A stretch of 53,088 nucleotides of DNA from Xanthobacteraceae bacterium. Its GTDB lineage: Bacteria > Pseudomonadota > Alphaproteobacteria > Rhizobiales > Xanthobacteraceae. The stretch lies in NCBI GenBank assembly GCA_019746135.1, contig JAIESI010000256.1:1-53088 (forward strand), read 5' to 3'. Positions 43,891-52,517 of this stretch are shown in pieces; the stretch's first letter is position 1; each line of letters starts with the position of its first letter. Both the position numbers and the translations under genes were made by a program. Under the pieces are notes generated by a model. That model saw only the letters and a list, made by a program, of their open reading frames with translations, was not told the origin of the DNA and made no database searches.

Positions 43891-44925
43891 CTAGCGGCAG
43901 CCCGGATGCTTGCTGTCCTTGTTCTCGACGACGAACGGCCCGAGCTTCTGCACGGCGTGCTGGATATAGCTCATGTCCATGAGCCGCTCGGCCGGAAATT
44001 GCGCTGCGATCATCTTGCTCTTCAGATACCACGACTGGATATCGAGCATGCTCGCGACGTTGATCTGGCCGTTCGGGCTGCGCGCCGGCCAGGGATATTT
44101 GTGGAGAAGTTCGGGCCGGCGCTCGGTGCCGCTCTTGACCAGCGCATCGATCACGTCGGCACGCAACGGACTGCCGTGGAACGCCTGGCAGTAGTCGCGG
44201 GCACCGCGGAGCCAGGCGACGAAATAGTTGTTCAGCATCTCCTTGTTCTGCTTCGCCCAGTCGGTGTTGACCATGATCACGGCGATGGTCATCGGGCTCG
44301 GCTGAATGAGATCGTCGGCCTCGCCGAACTTCACCGCGATGTTCTGGTCCTCGAACGCCCAGACGAACGGCGGAATGACGATGGCCGCGTCGATCGCCTT
44401 GTTGGTGAAGGCGACCGACATCTGCGGGAACGGAATGACCTTGATCTCGACATCGGCGATGGTCAGCCCCTCGCGCTCCAGCATCTTGCCGATCTCGTAA
44501 GTGGAAACCGATCCGGTGGCATTGCTGGCGATCACCTTCCCCTTCAGGTCCTTGAAGCTCTTGACCTTGTCCTTGAGGTCGGGACGGATCATCAAATTAT
44601 GCCGGATCGGCGTCGAGACGCGGTCGGACACGATGGTGATCGGCAGGTTCTTCTCGATGGCGTTGAAATAGCCGGCCGAGATGCCGCCCGCGACCATGTT
44701 CAGCCGCCCCTGCGCGAGCAGCGCGATCACGTTCGCCGAGGACTCGATGTCCTCGATCTCGAGCTTGATGCCGAACTCCTTGAAGTACCCCTTGTTGGTC
44801 GCCATCAACTCGGCGGAGTTGGAGGTCGAACGCGCCATGCCGACCTTAATGGTCATTTCTTGCGCGTTTGCGCCGATGGTGGCCACGTTGAGGACGGCCA
44901 GCAAAGCCCATGATGCAAATCGCAT
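43891..44925 (-). CDS. ABC substrate-binding protein (NMT1/SsuA-like)
   Basis: This 344-residue periplasmic protein has a signal peptide (about 1–21, ending GANAQ), then the NMT1/TauA/SsuA type II fold (TIKVGMARSTSNSAELM, EFGIKLEIEDIESSANVIAL). Family members bind nitrate, taurine, sulfonates, hydroxymethylpyrimidine or aromatic acids such as phthalate. AAGGGA precedes the start. It lies between UbiD and the ATPase, so the imported substrate is probably the UbiD acid or a precursor. Confidence 0.9.
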   Translation of the reverse strand: MRFASWALLAVLNVATIGANAQEMTIKVGMARSTSNSAELMATNKGYFKEFGIKLEIEDIESSANVIALLAQGRLNMVAGGISAGYFNAIEKNLPITIVSDRVSTPIRHNLMIRPDLKDKVKSFKDLKGKVIASNATGSVSTYEIGKMLEREGLTIADVEIKVIPFPQMSVAFTNKAIDAAIVIPPFVWAFEDQNIAVKFGEADDLIQPSPMTIAVIMVNTDWAKQNKEMLNNYFVAWLRGARDYCQAFHGSPLRADVIDALVKSGTERRPELLHKYPWPARSPNGQINVASMLDIQSWYLKSKMIAAQFPAERLMDMSYIQHAVQKLGPFVVENKDSKHPGCR

Positions 44926-44982
44926 GGTCGTCCCTTCCCTGTCCGGACCGGCGGCCAGCTTATTTTCGTTGGTGGAGCCGCT

Positions 44983-46539
44983 CTATTTGATGAAGTAGCG
45001 CCCTTCCCCGTCACGGTCGAGGGAAAGCTTGTCGCGGAGCGCGCCCAGCGTGCGGACCACCTCGCGCCCATCGCGGCTGCCCACCGCGGTCATCAGCTCC
45101 TCGAAGAACTTCGGCCCATCGGCCAGCGCGGCTTCCACCGATGGAAAACGCTTGCCGGCAAAGGCCGGCGGCGCGGGCACCTTCACCTCCAGCCGGTCGT
45201 GGGTGCCGAACGGCCAAGTCAGGTCGTAGCCGGCCTTGGCGCCGACGCGGGAGCCCGGTGGCAGCGACGGATCGAGCGGCAGCGTGCGCAGCCCGCTCAT
45301 GACGATCAGGTCGCGGTCGGGCTGAAAGCGCGTCGCCATCGCCCAGTCCATCTGCTCGTCGGAGAAGATGTCGACGTCGGGATCGACCACGTAGACGTTC
45401 TTGCAGTTGGCGAGCGCGGCCATGCAGGCGCCGATGGCGTTGCGCGCCTCGCCCGGCACGCGCTGACGGATCGCCACGCGCACGTTGAACGCGCCGCCGC
45501 TCGAGGTGGTGGCATAGACCGCGACCGGCTCGCGCACCGCCGATTGCAGCGCGTTCCAGATCGCGACTTCGGTGCGCAGGGCCGAAAGCTGCGCGGTGTC
45601 GGTGCGCCCGAGCGTCTTGCCGCCGATGGTCGAGGTCTGGAACAGCGCGTCCTTGCGGTGCGTGATCGCGGTGACGTGGAACACCGGGTTGCGCTTCACC
45701 GCGCCGTAATAGCCGAGGAACTCGCCGTAGGGACCTTCCGGCTCCACATGGCCGCGCTCGTCGAGATAGCCCTCGATGACGTATTCGGCGTCGGCCGGCA
45801 CGCGGATGTCGTTGGTGATGCTCTTGACCACCGGCAGCGGCGCGTCGCGCAGCATCGACACGAGGCCGATCTCGTCGACCGGCAGCCGCATGGTGCCGGC
45901 GACGTGGTCGATCGGATGCGCACCGACCACGAAGCTCACCGGCGTGGGCTTGCCGGCCGCGGCATTGGCCTCATAGATCGCCTTGAGATCGCTAGGCGCG
46001 ACGAGATCGATGCCGGTTTCCTTGTTCGAGCGCAGCATCAGCCGGCGCAATCCGACATTGGTCCAGCCGGTCTTGGGATCGATCACGTAGTCGATCGACG
46101 CGGAAATATACGGCCCGCCGTCAGCACCGTGCTGCAGATGCACCGGCAGCCGGGTCACGTCGGCGTCGTCGCCGGTCAGCACCACCTGCTGGCAGGGCGC
46201 CTCCGCGCGCGAGACTTCGAAAATGTCCGGCTTGTTGCGCAACCGCCGCTGGATTTCCTTGAGCAGCTCGCCGGGCTTCACGCCGAACGCCGCGGCAAGG
46301 CGGGCGCGGCCGCCCATCACGTTGCCGGCGAGTTCTGCCTTTTCCGGTCCCGCAGAACGGAACAGCACCGCCTTCGAATTGCCTTCCATCACCTCGGCGA
46401 TGCCGGCGAGGTCGACCGGACTGGCGCGGGTGTCGAGTTGATCCTGGTCCAGCCACTCGACGAAGCGGCGCAACCGGAAGCGGTCGAAATCCGCGACGTT
46501 CGATCTCAGGTGTGTTCCGGGCTTTTCGACCAGGTTCAT
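44983..46539 (-). CDS. UbiD-family (de)carboxylase
   Basis: This 518-residue protein belongs to the UbiD family, which uses prenylated FMN to add or remove CO2 on aromatic or unsaturated acids. Visible are the FMN/metal-binding region GWTNVGLRRLMLRS (158–171) and the catalytic Glu stretch HVEPEGPYGEFLGYYG (264–279). A UbiX flavin prenyltransferase is not in the window and must be supplied elsewhere. GGGAG precedes the ATG by about 7 bases. It leads the ABC-importer operon and is divergent from a molybdenum-hydroxylase gene. Confidence 0.92.
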   Translation of the reverse strand: MNLVEKPGTHLRSNVADFDRFRLRRFVEWLDQDQLDTRASPVDLAGIAEVMEGNSKAVLFRSAGPEKAELAGNVMGGRARLAAAFGVKPGELLKEIQRRLRNKPDIFEVSRAEAPCQQVVLTGDDADVTRLPVHLQHGADGGPYISASIDYVIDPKTGWTNVGLRRLMLRSNKETGIDLVAPSDLKAIYEANAAAGKPTPVSFVVGAHPIDHVAGTMRLPVDEIGLVSMLRDAPLPVVKSITNDIRVPADAEYVIEGYLDERGHVEPEGPYGEFLGYYGAVKRNPVFHVTAITHRKDALFQTSTIGGKTLGRTDTAQLSALRTEVAIWNALQSAVREPVAVYATTSSGGAFNVRVAIRQRVPGEARNAIGACMAALANCKNVYVVDPDVDIFSDEQMDWAMATRFQPDRDLIVMSGLRTLPLDPSLPPGSRVGAKAGYDLTWPFGTHDRLEVKVPAPPAFAGKRFPSVEAALADGPKFFEELMTAVGSRDGREVVRTLGALRDKLSLDRDGEGRYFIK

Positions 46540-46680
46540 CGGCGTTCTCCCACGGCCGAATTATAGATGTTTCTACCGCGCATCCAACTTGGTTGCGCTG
46601 GCAACGACCGCCCGCGTTCGATAGGCTGCCGCCCGCAAAACCACAAGAAGCAAAACCTTAAACGAAGCCTGCCGGACATC

Positions 46681-49041
46681 ATGGATCGCAAACCGAGAGC
46701 CGAAGGCGGCCCCTATATCGGCCGGCCGATGCCCCGTTTCGAAGACCTGCGCCTCGTGCGCGGCGCGGGGAAATACTCCGACGACATTTCGCTGGAGGGC
46801 CAGGCTTACGCCGTCTTTGTGCGGACGCCGCACGCGCATGCAACGATCAAGACGATCGACACAGCCGCGGCGGAGAAAATGCCCGGCGTGATCGCGGTGC
46901 TGACCGGCGCGGACTACATCGCCGACGGCCTCAAAGGTGCCTTGCAGCGCGCCAACCCGGCCGGCGCCATCGACATCAAGGTCCGCGCGTTCGACCCGGC
47001 CAAGCGGCCCGTGCTCGAGGAGCAGCAGTATCCGCTGGTGGCCGACCGCGTGCGCTATCCGGGCGAAGCGGTGGCGATGGTGGTGGCGGAGAGCCGCCTG
47101 GCCGCGCGCGACGCCGCCGAGGCGGTCGCGGTCGAATACGACGTGCTGCCGGCGGTGACCGACGTTCGCAAGGCGCAAGGCGCAGAACCGATCTGGCCGG
47201 CCCCCTGCCCCGACAATGTCGCGCTCGATGAATCGTTTGGCGATGCGGCCGCCGTGCGCGCGGCCTTCGACGCCGCCGATCTCGTGGTCGAGCAGACCTT
47301 TATCAACCAGCGCATCGCCAACTGCCAGATGGAGCCGCGCTCGGGGGTTGCGTCCTACGACGCCGCGACCGACGCCTACACGCTGATCTCGGGCAACCAG
47401 GGCGTTCACGCGCCCCGCATGGTGCTCGCCGAAAGCTGGGGCGTGCCGCTGGAAAAAATCCGCTTCATCTGCCCCGACGTCGGCGGCGGCTTCGGGCTGC
47501 GGAACAATCTCTACCCCGAGCAGACGTCGATCCTGTGGGCGGCAAAGCGCGTCGGCCGGCCGGTGAAATGGACCAACGACCGCTCCGAGTCCTTCCTCAC
47601 CGATTATGCGGGCCGCGACCTCGTGACCACCGCGAGGCTTGCATTCACGCGCGACGGCCGCATCGCCGCCTATCACGTCGATCACATCGGCACCTGCGGC
47701 GGCCAGACCGTGACCTATGTGCCGCTGTCCAACGCCTACCGCGTGGCGACGACGGTCTACGACATCCCGCTGATGCACATGCGCTGCCGCTCGATGATGA
47801 CCAACACGGTGCCGACCGCGCCGTTCCGCGGCGCCGGCCGGCCGGAGGCGACATTGGTGCTGGAGCGGCTGATTGATCTTGCCGCGGACCGGCTCGGCAT
47901 GGACAGGCTCGCGATCCGCAGGAAGAACGTCATCCCGAGGACGAAGCTGCCCTATCGCACCGCGAGCGGGCTCCTCTACGACAGCGGCGACTTCGCCAAC
48001 AACATGAAGCGCATGATCGAGGCCGCCGACTGGAAGGGCTTTGCGGCGCGCAAACGCGAATCGAGGAAGCGCGGCAAGCTGCGCGGCATCGGCATCTCGA
48101 ACTACCTCGAAACGCCGGTCGGCATCCCCCACGAGCGCGTCGAGGTGACGGTGCTCGGCAGCGGCAAGGTCGAGCTTGCGGTCGGCACGCAATCGACCGG
48201 CCAGGGCCACGAGACGAGCTTCGCGCAGGTGATGGCTGATCTGCTTGGCGTCCATCCCGAAGACATCGTCTTCATCGGCGGCGACACAGCGAAAATTCCC
48301 TCCGGCAGCGGCACCCATTCCGACCGCTCGATGCGGCTCGGTGGCACGCTGATGTTCCAGGCCTCCGAGGACGTGGTGGCACAGGCCAAGGCCGCCTCGG
48401 CGAAAATCCTCGGCGTTCCGGAAGGCGACGTCTCGTTCGACGACGGGCTGTTCTCGACGCCGAAGAGCAACCGCCGCCTGACCGTCTATGACGTGGCCAA
48501 AGCGATGGACGAGAACCCCGCGCTCTCGGGCGGCAAGCCGCTGCAATCGAAAAAAACCTTCACCGGCCGCATCCCGGCCTATCCGACCGGCTGCGCGATC
48601 TGCGAGGTCGAGATCGATCCGGACACCGGCGCGATCAGCATTCCCCGCTACGGCTCGATCGACGACGCGGGCCAGGCGATCAATCCGCTCATTCTGCATG
48701 GACAGGTGCACGGCGGCATCGTGCAGGGCGTCGGCCAGGCGCTGCTCGAGGACGTGCGCTACGACGACCACGGCCAGGTGCTGACCGGCAGCTTCATGGA
48801 TTACGGCATCCCGCGGGCGAACCTTGTTCCCTCGTTCGACATCGCGCTGACCGAGGACCCGACCAAGGGCAATCCGCTGCGCGTCAAGGGCGGCGGCGAG
48901 GCCGGCATCACGCCGGCATTGGCCGTGGTGATGAACGCGATCATGGATGCGCTGAAGGACCACGGCGTCGAGCACATGGACATGCCGGCGACACCGCATC
49001 GGATTTGGGAAGCGATCCAGAAGGCGAAGGCCGCGTCCTAG
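46681..49041 (+). CDS. Molybdenum hydroxylase large subunit (xanthine dehydrogenase family), lone
   Basis: This 786-residue protein is a paralogue of the 21.9-kb gene, with the same two-domain layout (hammerhead about 25–140, molybdopterin domain 160–780). Motifs are VGGGFGLRNNLYPE, APFRGAGRPE and the catalytic Glu740 in KGGGEAGITP. Like the first copy it has no 2Fe-2S or FAD partner adjacent. It is divergent from UbiD (141-base gap), suggesting ring hydroxylation coupled to decarboxylation. The start at 46681 matches the family N-terminus. Its stop shares CTAG with the convergent gene. Confidence 0.92.
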   Translation: MDRKPRAEGGPYIGRPMPRFEDLRLVRGAGKYSDDISLEGQAYAVFVRTPHAHATIKTIDTAAAEKMPGVIAVLTGADYIADGLKGALQRANPAGAIDIKVRAFDPAKRPVLEEQQYPLVADRVRYPGEAVAMVVAESRLAARDAAEAVAVEYDVLPAVTDVRKAQGAEPIWPAPCPDNVALDESFGDAAAVRAAFDAADLVVEQTFINQRIANCQMEPRSGVASYDAATDAYTLISGNQGVHAPRMVLAESWGVPLEKIRFICPDVGGGFGLRNNLYPEQTSILWAAKRVGRPVKWTNDRSESFLTDYAGRDLVTTARLAFTRDGRIAAYHVDHIGTCGGQTVTYVPLSNAYRVATTVYDIPLMHMRCRSMMTNTVPTAPFRGAGRPEATLVLERLIDLAADRLGMDRLAIRRKNVIPRTKLPYRTASGLLYDSGDFANNMKRMIEAADWKGFAARKRESRKRGKLRGIGISNYLETPVGIPHERVEVTVLGSGKVELAVGTQSTGQGHETSFAQVMADLLGVHPEDIVFIGGDTAKIPSGSGTHSDRSMRLGGTLMFQASEDVVAQAKAASAKILGVPEGDVSFDDGLFSTPKSNRRLTVYDVAKAMDENPALSGGKPLQSKKTFTGRIPAYPTGCAICEVEIDPDTGAISIPRYGSIDDAGQAINPLILHGQVHGGIVQGVGQALLEDVRYDDHGQVLTGSFMDYGIPRANLVPSFDIALTEDPTKGNPLRVKGGGEAGITPALAVVMNAIMDALKDHGVEHMDMPATPHRIWEAIQKAKAAS

Positions 49042-49730
49042 TCCCTGCCGGATCCGGCAGCCCGCCGTTCCTCGGCCGCGAAGATCATGCCGGAGCCCGC
49101 GCCGACCTCCGCGCGCACCCGCTGCGCCGGGCGAATGTGCTCAAAAGTCTCGAACGTCGAACGGAACCGCTTGCCGTCGATCACAACGACGTATTCCGAA
49201 TCGAGGCCATATCCCCCGGACTTGTACGCGCGGTCGACGTGCCCCTCGACCACGCGCCTCGGCAATACAATGTCTCGGATCGCAATAATGCCGAAGCCCA
49301 TGACGATCGCGAGGCCCACCAGAGCGAACCCCGCCCGCACCAAGCCGGGCATCTTCCGGGGTTGACCGCCGATGTGCGTCTTCGCAAAAGCTTTTGCCGA
49401 AAGCCCCACCCACGCCACGAGCGCACCGAGGAGGATCGCGAACATCTGGCCGTTGAGAACCGATAGCCGCGTCCAGTCCCAGCAGATAAGCAGCACCACC
49501 CATCCGGCCAACAGCAACAGGATCAATGCCACGACGGCCATCTCAATGAGCGTCGGGTTCTGTGAGCCCTGCGACGCCGGATATCGCCCGAACCGGCCTT
49601 TGTTCAGATAGGACAGCGCAGCCCTTTGTGCATGGAGAGCGTTCGACCGCCGCCCGCGGATGAACACCAGAACGCTGATAGCGGACACGAGCAGCCACCA
49701 GGCGACGAGGAACCAGTCAGGTGCGCTCAT
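49038..49730 (-). CDS. Hypothetical membrane protein
   Basis: This 230-residue protein has four hydrophobic segments (about 5–24, 60–85, 90–115 and 130–155), then a C-terminal soluble domain with DSEYVVVIDGKRFRSTFETF, resembling short DUF3592-type domains. Function is unknown. The start at 49730 (MSAPDW) begins the first helix; an in-frame ATG at 49802 would add 24 residues. It is convergent with the molybdenum-hydroxylase gene, and the two stops share bases 49039–49040. Confidence 0.65.
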   Translation of the reverse strand: MSAPDWFLVAWWLLVSAISVLVFIRGRRSNALHAQRAALSYLNKGRFGRYPASQGSQNPTLIEMAVVALILLLLAGWVVLLICWDWTRLSVLNGQMFAILLGALVAWVGLSAKAFAKTHIGGQPRKMPGLVRAGFALVGLAIVMGFGIIAIRDIVLPRRVVEGHVDRAYKSGGYGLDSEYVVVIDGKRFRSTFETFEHIRPAQRVRAEVGAGSGMIFAAEERRAAGSGRD

Positions 49731-49906
49731 GGGCGAACGAGCCAAAGCAGGTCGAAAACCGCCATCCGGCCCAATTATGCCGCAGCGTGCCGGACGACCC
49801 AAGCCGCAAACGACTACCAGACATAACTTGACCCCGCGAAACGCCCCGTCGAATAATCCTTATCACTGTTCTTATTCGCCGCCGGGATGCAGGAGCGGAG
49901 GACGCG

Positions 49907-51010
49907 ATGAATATCCAGATCGGCCACGATGCCGCGCTGATCGAGAGCAAGAAAAAGCTCGTCAGCGGGACCTATCTGCACAACGCCTGGTACGTCGCGG
50001 CCTGGGCCCACGAGCTCGAAGGCGGCAAGATCATCGGCCGCACGTTCCTCAACGAGCCGGTGGCTATCTACCGCCAAGGTGACGGCAAGCTCGTCGCGCT
50101 CGACGACCGCTGCGCGCACCGCTTCGCCCCGCTGAGCATGGGTCAGGTGCTCGACGGCAACCGCATCCAGTGCCCCTATCACGGGCTCGAGTACGACGGC
50201 ACCGGCGCCTGCGTGCTCAATCCGCACGGCAACAAGCACATCTCGTCGCGGTTGCGGGTGAAAAGCTACCCAGTGATCGAGAAGCACAATGCGATCTGGA
50301 TCTGGATGGGCGACAAGGCGCCCGATCCGTCCAAGGTTCCGGACTTCTCGGTGATGGACAACGTGCCGGAGCTGCACTCGACCAAGCGCGACAAGATCGT
50401 GATCAAGGCCAATGTCGAGCTGATCATCGACAACCTGCTCGACCTGAGCCACACCGCCTATCTGCACAACGGCATTCTCGGCAATGCCAGCACGGTCGAG
50501 TCCGACATCGAGGTGGTGCAGGACGGCGACAGCGTCACCGTGTCCCGCTATGCGAGCAACTGCGAGCCGCCGGGCATGAACAAGATGATGTGGCCGGAGG
50601 TCCCGGACGTCGTCGACAAGTTCTCGTTCATCAAGTGGATGGCGCCGTCGACGCTGAAGCTCCTCGCCGGCGTCTGCCTGCCGGGCAAGGAACCGGAAAG
50701 CGGCAGCGGCTATCATGCGATCCACCTGCTGACGCCGGAGACCGATCACACCACGCATTACTTCTTCACCGCCATCCGCTTCGGGGTCTACAGCAAGGGC
50801 GACGAGATCAACCGCCAGATCCAGGAAAAGGTCGCCGCCACGCGGAGGTTCGCCTTCGAGGAGCAGGACGCGCCGGTGATCGAGGCGCAGCAGCGGTTCA
50901 TCGACGTGTCGCAGACCGAGATGGACCCGGTGATTCTCGCGATCGACGTCGGCCCGGTGCGCTACAAGCAGGTGCTGAAGAAGCTGATTGCGGCCGAGCA
51001 GGCGCCTTAA
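49907..51010 (+). CDS. Rieske non-haem iron oxygenase (VanA/phthalate-oxygenase-like), lone
   Basis: This 367-residue oxygenase has a Rieske domain with Cys69/His71 (RCAHRFAP) and Cys89/His92 (CPYHGLEYD), and the mononuclear-iron motif NLLDLSHTAYLH with His182 and His187. It resembles the single-subunit group that includes vanillate O-demethylase and phthalate oxygenase, which need a separate reductase. None is adjacent; the 33.2-kb reductase might serve it. GGAGG precedes the ATG. A palindromic repeat follows its stop. Confidence 0.93.
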   Translation: MNIQIGHDAALIESKKKLVSGTYLHNAWYVAAWAHELEGGKIIGRTFLNEPVAIYRQGDGKLVALDDRCAHRFAPLSMGQVLDGNRIQCPYHGLEYDGTGACVLNPHGNKHISSRLRVKSYPVIEKHNAIWIWMGDKAPDPSKVPDFSVMDNVPELHSTKRDKIVIKANVELIIDNLLDLSHTAYLHNGILGNASTVESDIEVVQDGDSVTVSRYASNCEPPGMNKMMWPEVPDVVDKFSFIKWMAPSTLKLLAGVCLPGKEPESGSGYHAIHLLTPETDHTTHYFFTAIRFGVYSKGDEINRQIQEKVAATRRFAFEEQDAPVIEAQQRFIDVSQTEMDPVILAIDVGPVRYKQVLKKLIAAEQAP

Positions 51011-51015
51011 TCGGC

Positions 51016-51100
51016 GGCTGTAGGATGGGTTGAGCCGAAGGCGAAACCCATCGAACCGGCGCATGATGGGTTTCGCTGCCGGTCAACCCATCCTACAGCC
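51016..51100. repeat. Nested double inverted repeat (18-bp outer, 12-bp inner)
   Basis: The outer arms GGCTGTAGGATGGGTTGA (51016–51033) and TCAACCCATCCTACAGCC (51083–51100) are perfect. Inside them GCGAAACCCATC (51041–51052) pairs perfectly with GATGGGTTTCGC (51065–51076). The whole 85-base unit can fold as a long branched hairpin and may be a mobile palindromic repeat. It lies between the Rieske oxygenase and the PurC–PurE fusion. Confidence 0.85.
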
Positions 51101-51116
51101 CACCGCGGAAATCACA

Positions 51117-51161
51117 GGTTTTCGTTGAAAACCCCCTGTCGTGGCCTAGATGACGTCTAGG
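51117..51161. promoter_or_regulatory. Two small inverted repeats before the PurC–PurE fusion gene
   Basis: GGTTTTC-GTT-GAAAACC (51117–51133) and CCTAGA-TGACG-TCTAGG (51145–51161) lie 34–78 bases upstream of the start. The second is a plausible repressor site; the first could be a weak hairpin. No purine-type operator is recognised with certainty. Confidence 0.35.
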
Positions 51162-51194
51162 CGAACGTCTAATTTCGGGGTTTCTTTTCACCCT

Positions 51195-52517
51195 ATGCAG
51201 GATCGCAACGTGGACGCCCCAACGGCCGGACACCCCAAAGCCCTTTCCCTCGGCGCGCTGGTCACCGAAGGAAAGACCAAGAAAATCTTCCGCATCGTCG
51301 GCTCCGACCTCGTGTCGGTCGTGGCCAAGGACGACATCACCGCAGGCGACGGCGCCAAGCACGACATCATCCCCGACAAGGGGGCGCTCGCGACCGCGAC
51401 CACCTGCAACGTGTTCCGCCTGCTCAAGGCCTGCGGCATTCCGGTCGCCTTCGAGGAGCAGAACAGCGCCACCTCGTTCATCGCCCCGCCCTGCACCATG
51501 CTGCCCTACGAGGTGGTGGTGCGGCGCGAGGCGCACGGTTCCGCGCTCAAGCGCAGCCCGCATTTCAGCAAGGGGCAATTGTTCCCCAAGCTGATCGTCG
51601 AGTTCTACCTCAAGACCAAGGACAAGAACTGGAAGGGCAAGCCGCTGGTCGCCGACGACCCGTACATGGACTACGAGGACGGCAGCGCGCACATCAAGTT
51701 GTTCAATCCGGCGAAGCCGATCCTCGGCTCCGAGCCGTTCCTGGTGCTCGACACCGCCGACGTGTTCAGCCAGCCGAACGAGTACAAATTCTTCCCCGAG
51801 ATGCGCAAGATCGCGCGGCAGGCGTTCCTGGCGCTGGAAAAGGCCTGGGCGCTCGAGGGCGGCAGGCTCGTCGACTACAAGGTCGAGTTCGGCTTCGATG
51901 CCCACGGCCGGCTGCTGCTGGCCGACGTGATCGACAACGACTCCTGGCGGGTGATCGAGAACGGCGCCTATATCGACAAGCAGGTCTATCGCGACGGCGG
52001 CGCGCTCGACACGGTCGCGGCGAAGTACAAGCAGGTGGCCGAGACCACCGCGCACTTCCGCCTGCCCAGCCAGCGCATCATCCTGTGGCGCGGCTCGGAG
52101 ACCGACAAGACCGAGCCGTTCGCCGACGCGCTCGGCGACCTCAAGGAGATGATGACGGTCGTCACCTGCTCGATCCACAAGGAGCCGGTCGCCGGATACA
52201 ACAAGCTCGCGCACCTGATCCAGGAGGTGCCGGACAGCGTCGTCATCGCCAACATCGGCCGCTCGAACGGCGCGGGCCCGGTGCTGTCGGCGCAGTCGAC
52301 CATCCCGGTGATCACCGTGCCGGCCAGCGCCCGCGACTTCCCCGAGGACGTCTGGTCGTCGCTGCGGGCGCCGAGCAAGGTGCCGGTCATGACGGTGATG
52401 GAGCCCGCCAATGCGGTGCTCGCGGCGCTGCAGATCCTGTCAGCCCGCAATCCGCGGATTTACGCGCATCTGCGCTCCGAGATCGAAAGCCGCGCGGTCA
52501 ACACGCTGACGATTTAG
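51195..52517 (+). CDS. Fused SAICAR synthetase / AIR carboxylase (animal PAICS-like)
   Basis: This 440-residue protein joins two purine-synthesis enzymes. Residues 1–290 are PurC (EGKTKKIF at 25–32, RREAHGS at 110–116, DYKVEFG at 227–233, LADVIDNDSWR at 242–252). Residues 295–440 are PurE class II-like: GSETD (300–304), SIHKEP (326–331), GRSNGAGPVLS (355–365) and DVWSSLRAPS (385–394). The order and the Lys in the SAHK-type motif match animal PAICS rather than separate bacterial PurE/PurC. The usual GSxSD motif reads GSETD. It would convert AIR plus CO2 to SAICAR in two steps; class II carboxylases need no PurK. Confidence 0.88.
   Translation: MQDRNVDAPTAGHPKALSLGALVTEGKTKKIFRIVGSDLVSVVAKDDITAGDGAKHDIIPDKGALATATTCNVFRLLKACGIPVAFEEQNSATSFIAPPCTMLPYEVVVRREAHGSALKRSPHFSKGQLFPKLIVEFYLKTKDKNWKGKPLVADDPYMDYEDGSAHIKLFNPAKPILGSEPFLVLDTADVFSQPNEYKFFPEMRKIARQAFLALEKAWALEGGRLVDYKVEFGFDAHGRLLLADVIDNDSWRVIENGAYIDKQVYRDGGALDTVAAKYKQVAETTAHFRLPSQRIILWRGSETDKTEPFADALGDLKEMMTVVTCSIHKEPVAGYNKLAHLIQEVPDSVVIANIGRSNGAGPVLSAQSTIPVITVPASARDFPEDVWSSLRAPSKVPVMTVMEPANAVLAALQILSARNPRIYAHLRSEIESRAVNTLTI

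Follow-up and report, generated by a model that had tools for sequence, protein, structure and literature searches.

We identified, in a contig of a Xanthobacteraceae bacterium (assembly GCA_019746135.1, contig JAIESI010000256.1; its full 53,088 nucleotides are the window referred to below), a gene for a PAICS-like fusion protein that joins an N-terminal half resembling PurC, the synthetase of N-succinyl-5-aminoimidazole-4-carboxamide ribonucleotide (SAICAR), to a C-terminal half resembling class II PurE, the 5-aminoimidazole ribonucleotide (AIR) carboxylase. With a probability that we put at roughly three in four, this is a CO2-using, ATP-saving enzyme of de novo purine synthesis that displaced PurK–PurE and provides a second SAICAR synthetase. 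The animal-style enzyme probably performs AIR carboxylation, because many of its carriers, which are some soil and freshwater bacteria, seem to have discarded purE and purK.

In the cited parts of PMC4177761 and PMC10912719, bacteria are taken to use the ATP-dependent PurK–PurE route, direct AIR carboxylation is regarded as nearly confined to eukaryotes, and Table 1 of the latter gives no bacterial enzyme for the direct reaction. Class II PurE adds CO2 to AIR without ATP, whereas PurK–PurE uses ATP and bicarbonate (PMC3261824, PMC10912719, in the sections concerned). What is new here is a PAICS-like enzyme in bacteria, with a predicted activity, together with genomic evidence for the displacement of PurK–PurE. 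If true, a bacterial animal-type fusion accompanied by purE–purK loss would allow direct tests of where PAICS came from and of what the switch costs and yields, and drug plans that assume PurE and PurK in every bacterium would meet an exception.

Architecture and active sites of the fusion

The original prediction of a PurC–PurE fusion in one frame holds: a single open reading frame (51150-52517, plus strand) runs through both domains without a stop, and one protein exceeds the Pfam cut-offs for both SAICAR_synt (146.6 bits, cut-off 20) and AIRC (64.4 bits, cut-off 30). On the basis of this reading frame, the Pfam matches and start conservation, we place the gene at 51210..52517 (+), from a GTG start to a TAG stop. 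Translation had previously been thought to begin at ATG 51195, which is not conserved, whereas GTG 51210 is invariant in all nine aligned upstream regions of relatives; because of this invariance and an AGGA 8-11 bases before it (51199..51202, +, by sequence its probable ribosome-binding site), GTG 51210 is the likely start, giving a protein of 435 residues.

The PurC half (51210..52052, +) contains PF01259 matches at 51261-51623 and 51792-52043, and the PurE half (52074..52514, +) matches PF00731 at 64.4-67.4 bits. The fusion falls below the NCBIfam cut-offs for purC (TIGR00081; 90.7 versus 189.9 bits) and for purE (TIGR01162, the class I mutase; 61.9 versus 149.6 bits). By sequence and predicted fold alike, its closest solved relatives are insect and human PAICS: the PurC half scores 133.2 bits against Bombyx PAICS and 89.9 against the best stand-alone PurC in the PDB, and the PurE half scores 54.4 bits against Bombyx PAICS, compared with 28.9 against the class II PurE of Treponema and 27.0 against the best class I PurE. 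Both halves are under purifying selection, with ratios of nonsynonymous to synonymous substitution rates of 0.15 (PurC) and 0.17 (PurE) relative to the copy in genome G080.

To assess the active sites, we compared an alignment of 17 copies with stretches of human and Bombyx PAICS, taking as reference the active-site residues modelled for the human enzyme in the relevant part of PMC9376930. This alignment leaves out L018 (a half), L023 and L094 (the window), L025 (the same as L009), and L028 and L031 (both partial). The window copy is identical at 19 of the 24 residues listed for the SAICAR synthetase site and at 11 of the 18 listed for the AIR carboxylase site, where the equivalents of Ser274, Asp277, Ser301, His303, Lys304 and Arg331 are all present. 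Among the 17 copies, each carboxylase-site residue to which a role is assigned in human PAICS is kept by all or all but one, except for the variable middle position of one loop. The His and Arg of the carboxylase site are altered in a single copy, L016 (L016:1399-2754), a homologue of 56% identity in a metagenome-assembled genome (MAG) labelled Candidatus Rhabdochlamydia; there Gln replaces the catalytic His and Lys the loop Arg, and by eye the N-terminus carries a signal-peptide-like stretch.

The motifs SIHKEP (52170..52187, +; the equivalents of Ser301, His303 and Lys304) and DVWSSLR (52347..52367, +; identical to human PAICS) are present as originally noted, and the PAICS-like architecture with a class II PurE half is supported. 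DVIDNDSWR (51924..51950, +) also reads as in human PAICS, while the separate purC of the same genome has DEISPDSCR here. We assign the PurE half to class II because of its GRSNGAG loop (52257..52277, +) and the Lys after the His; class I copies of the family read GAGGAAHLPG in the loop, and the copy in G038 has SAHR in place of SxHK. The phosphate/ribose loop GSxSD reads GSETD (52092..52106, +), which had been taken to hint at an altered carboxylase. This argument is weak, because family members show T, S, N, M or K at the middle position (the Ser276 equivalent, Thr in the window) and Bombyx PAICS has Ala there; all 17 copies keep the outer Ser and Asp.

Probable displacement of purE and purK

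The full fusion occurs in 9 of 119 family genomes (split over two contigs in one of them, G011), and four further genomes of the genus carry it, one as an 85-residue fragment, for a total of 13 family genomes. Profile searches found it in none of 384 other genomes sampled at class level (1e-40), where only G146 has a related PurC, and in none of 397 others sampled at phylum level (1e-35). Named copies come from Rhodoplanes, Pseudolabrys, Xanthobacteraceae and Hyphomicrobiales MAGs and the MAG labelled Candidatus Rhabdochlamydia; these make up 12 loci, 11 with both halves, four of the 12 being the same contigs as in G119, G122, G101 and G008. That relatives usually have separate genes, as had been presumed, is borne out by the 110 family genomes that lack the complete fusion: 104 of them have a stand-alone purE and 101 a purK above its curated cut-off.

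A check of the window genome for purC, purE and purK, proposed earlier, found a second, ordinary purC (269 bits) near purS–purQ–purL, with two open reading frames in between. In profile searches of this genome, the only PF00731 match above cut-off is the fusion itself, and no purK reaches the cut-off (best 43 versus 318 bits). No other PurE was found in 9 of the 13 fusion genomes, and purK above cut-off is absent from 11 of them (genomic data only). In all nine genomes of the genus with an assembled rpsU site, one of them a single contig of 8.19 Mb, purE and purK are missing from their former position next to rpsU.

In the mechanism that we propose, the C-terminal half would convert AIR and CO2 directly to 4-carboxy-AIR (CAIR), without ATP or PurK, and the N-terminal half would convert CAIR, aspartate and ATP to SAICAR alongside the housekeeping PurC that the genome keeps. 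CAIR might be channelled between the halves as in animals, which is a guess here; such channelling has been proposed for human PAICS (PMC9376930, in the part cited). Once the lineage held the fusion, the latter would have taken over AIR carboxylation, making purK and then purE dispensable, so that the ancestral pair beside rpsU was lost and purC stayed. Enzymatic activity, CO2 as the substrate, channelling and gain of the fusion before the loss of purE–purK are what we infer from sequence. A wider claim seems to us evenly poised between true and false: that a free-living bacterial lineage exchanged ATP-dependent PurK–PurE for a PAICS-like enzyme that uses CO2 and channels its intermediate, and whose two halves form deep branches next to the animal enzyme; that the PAICS fusion then either predates animals or arose twice; and that present genomes show the displacement under way (fusion with purE and a purK stump; fusion alone; a copy cut to the PurC half where purE–purK persist).

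G020, which belongs to another genus, has an intact purE next to what is left of purK, 66-74 codons from its C-terminal end (L162:2350-3051), possibly an intermediate in the loss. In G008, the copy ends after the PurC half (L018:5902-6813), and the genome keeps purE and purK.

Several observations weigh against displacement. G011 and G078 have an empty rpsU site, and both carry purE and purK elsewhere alongside the fusion; a divergent purE is present in G123, where its contig carries a pntB of only 64% identity and is possibly a contaminant. Conversely, G120 (79% complete) has an empty rpsU site, yet the fusion was not found in it. purE is likewise missing from six family genomes that have no fusion, and the near-complete, fusion-free G017 and G049 have neither purE nor purK; because such fusion-free genomes exist, assemblies can evidently lose purE. 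In the window genome, the rpsU site is unassembled, the contig ending after a TPR gene, and the loss is therefore read from hidden Markov model searches. Fisher tests, in which G008 and genomes without any protein match counted as non-fusion and G011 as fusion, are not independent, since the fusion genomes belong mostly to one clade. Furthermore, the PurC half looks redundant beside the retained housekeeping purC, the PurE half is only ~30% identical to animal PAICS, and the Mg ligand Asp137 cannot be placed in a badly aligned segment, where an Asp-Asp-Pro is invariant in 17 of 17 copies.

In G011 (L104:6865-10031) and G078 (L111:7830-10882), genes for an Sbt_1 bicarbonate transporter, a P-II-like protein, PurE and PurK lie in a row on one strand, and bicarbonate supply is perhaps tied to PurK there.

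Ancestry and known relatives

In the phylogeny suggested at the outset, both halves fall on the animal side of the trees (100/99 support), apart from ordinary PurC and class I PurE, on long branches and among few outside sequences, the sampling being thin and the Treponema row a fragment. The branch at the base of the bacterial clade amounts to 0.9 (PurC) and 3.5 (PurE) changes per column. A stand-alone PurC of the alphaproteobacterium G146 lies on the same side, on a very long branch (2.58). Transfer and deep origin had both been left open, and the choice between them stands, except that recent transfer from animals is unlikely because of the long branches and an identity of ~30-34%. The origin may lie in an old bacterial or protist source or in an independent fusion, which the trees do not tell apart.

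Animal PAICS (human 2h31/6yb8, Bombyx 4ja0) shares with the fusion the N-terminal SAICAR synthetase, the C-terminal class II PurE and common motifs, and is its best match in sequence and fold. The two are ~32-34% identical and differ in that the segment separating the PurC parts is longer in the fusion, which reads GSETD/GRSNGA instead of GSTSD/GRSNGL in the PurE loops; moreover, its host keeps a second PurC, and it is known here from sequence. The class II PurE of Treponema denticola (3rg8) is stand-alone. A published parallel is the class II-like PurE of Archaeoglobus, which likewise occurs without PurK and with class I purE lost; it belongs to an archaeon, is described as PurE and not as a PurC fusion, and is inferred by the authors to derive from a eukaryote by transfer (PMC3261824, in the part cited). 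Bacterial PurK, class I PurE and PurC achieve the same overall conversion of AIR to SAICAR, but with three proteins, extra ATP and bicarbonate; all but purC would have been replaced here.

Alternative explanations and genomic neighbourhood

Positions 43891-51010 of the window encode a solute-binding protein, a UbiD-type decarboxylase, the large subunit of a molybdenum (Mo)-hydroxylase and a VanA-like Rieske oxygenase, a set that resembles a catabolic cluster for aromatic or heterocyclic compounds. The fusion might accordingly be a paralogue in another pathway, performing a CAIR-like ligation or decarboxylation tied to these neighbours. The same Mo-hydroxylase and Rieske genes upstream of the fusion in G080, L007 and L008, the existence of a housekeeping purC and the retention of only the PurC half in G008 would agree with this. 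However, the neighbourhood is common to just 4 of 14 loci compared, other copies lying beside GGDEF, TctC or other genes, and the purE–purK loss at the rpsU site would go unexplained; we consider this reading unlikely. Very unlikely, in our estimate, is a PurE half that is inactive or minor, with CAIR arising by spontaneous chemistry of N5-carboxyaminoimidazole ribonucleotide (N5-CAIR) or an unseen enzyme, or with purine salvage instead. High CO2 or overexpression of PurE can indeed make PurK dispensable (PMC3261824, in the passage cited), and the NCBIfam purE cut-off is not reached, but the conserved active-site residues, the purifying selection and the carriers with no other PurE all speak for a working domain.

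Recent horizontal transfer of an animal PAICS gene would account for the shared domain order, for DVIDNDSWR, GRSNG and DVWSSLR, and for the grouping of both halves with animal PAICS; given the divergence and basal branches described above and the position of the G146 PurC, we grant it hardly any credence. As for an assembly or binning artefact, the window genome consists of 395 contigs, with 97.6% completeness and 8.5% contamination, but a further 12 family genomes (one with a fragment, one with a split copy) and the 11 named loci with both halves, including that of the Rhabdochlamydia MAG, have the same gene, and its presence in the single-contig G080 refutes this explanation.

The Rieske oxygenase gene (49907..51010, +) lies upstream of the fusion, among the 14 loci compared, only in the window, L105, L007 and L008, and we regard it as a neighbour that is not part of the function. 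Between it and the fusion, positions 51016-51100 of the window hold nested inverted repeats (25 nt, 88%; 12 nt, 100%), whose core, not found in L105, L106 or L128, occurs in the window once in each orientation.
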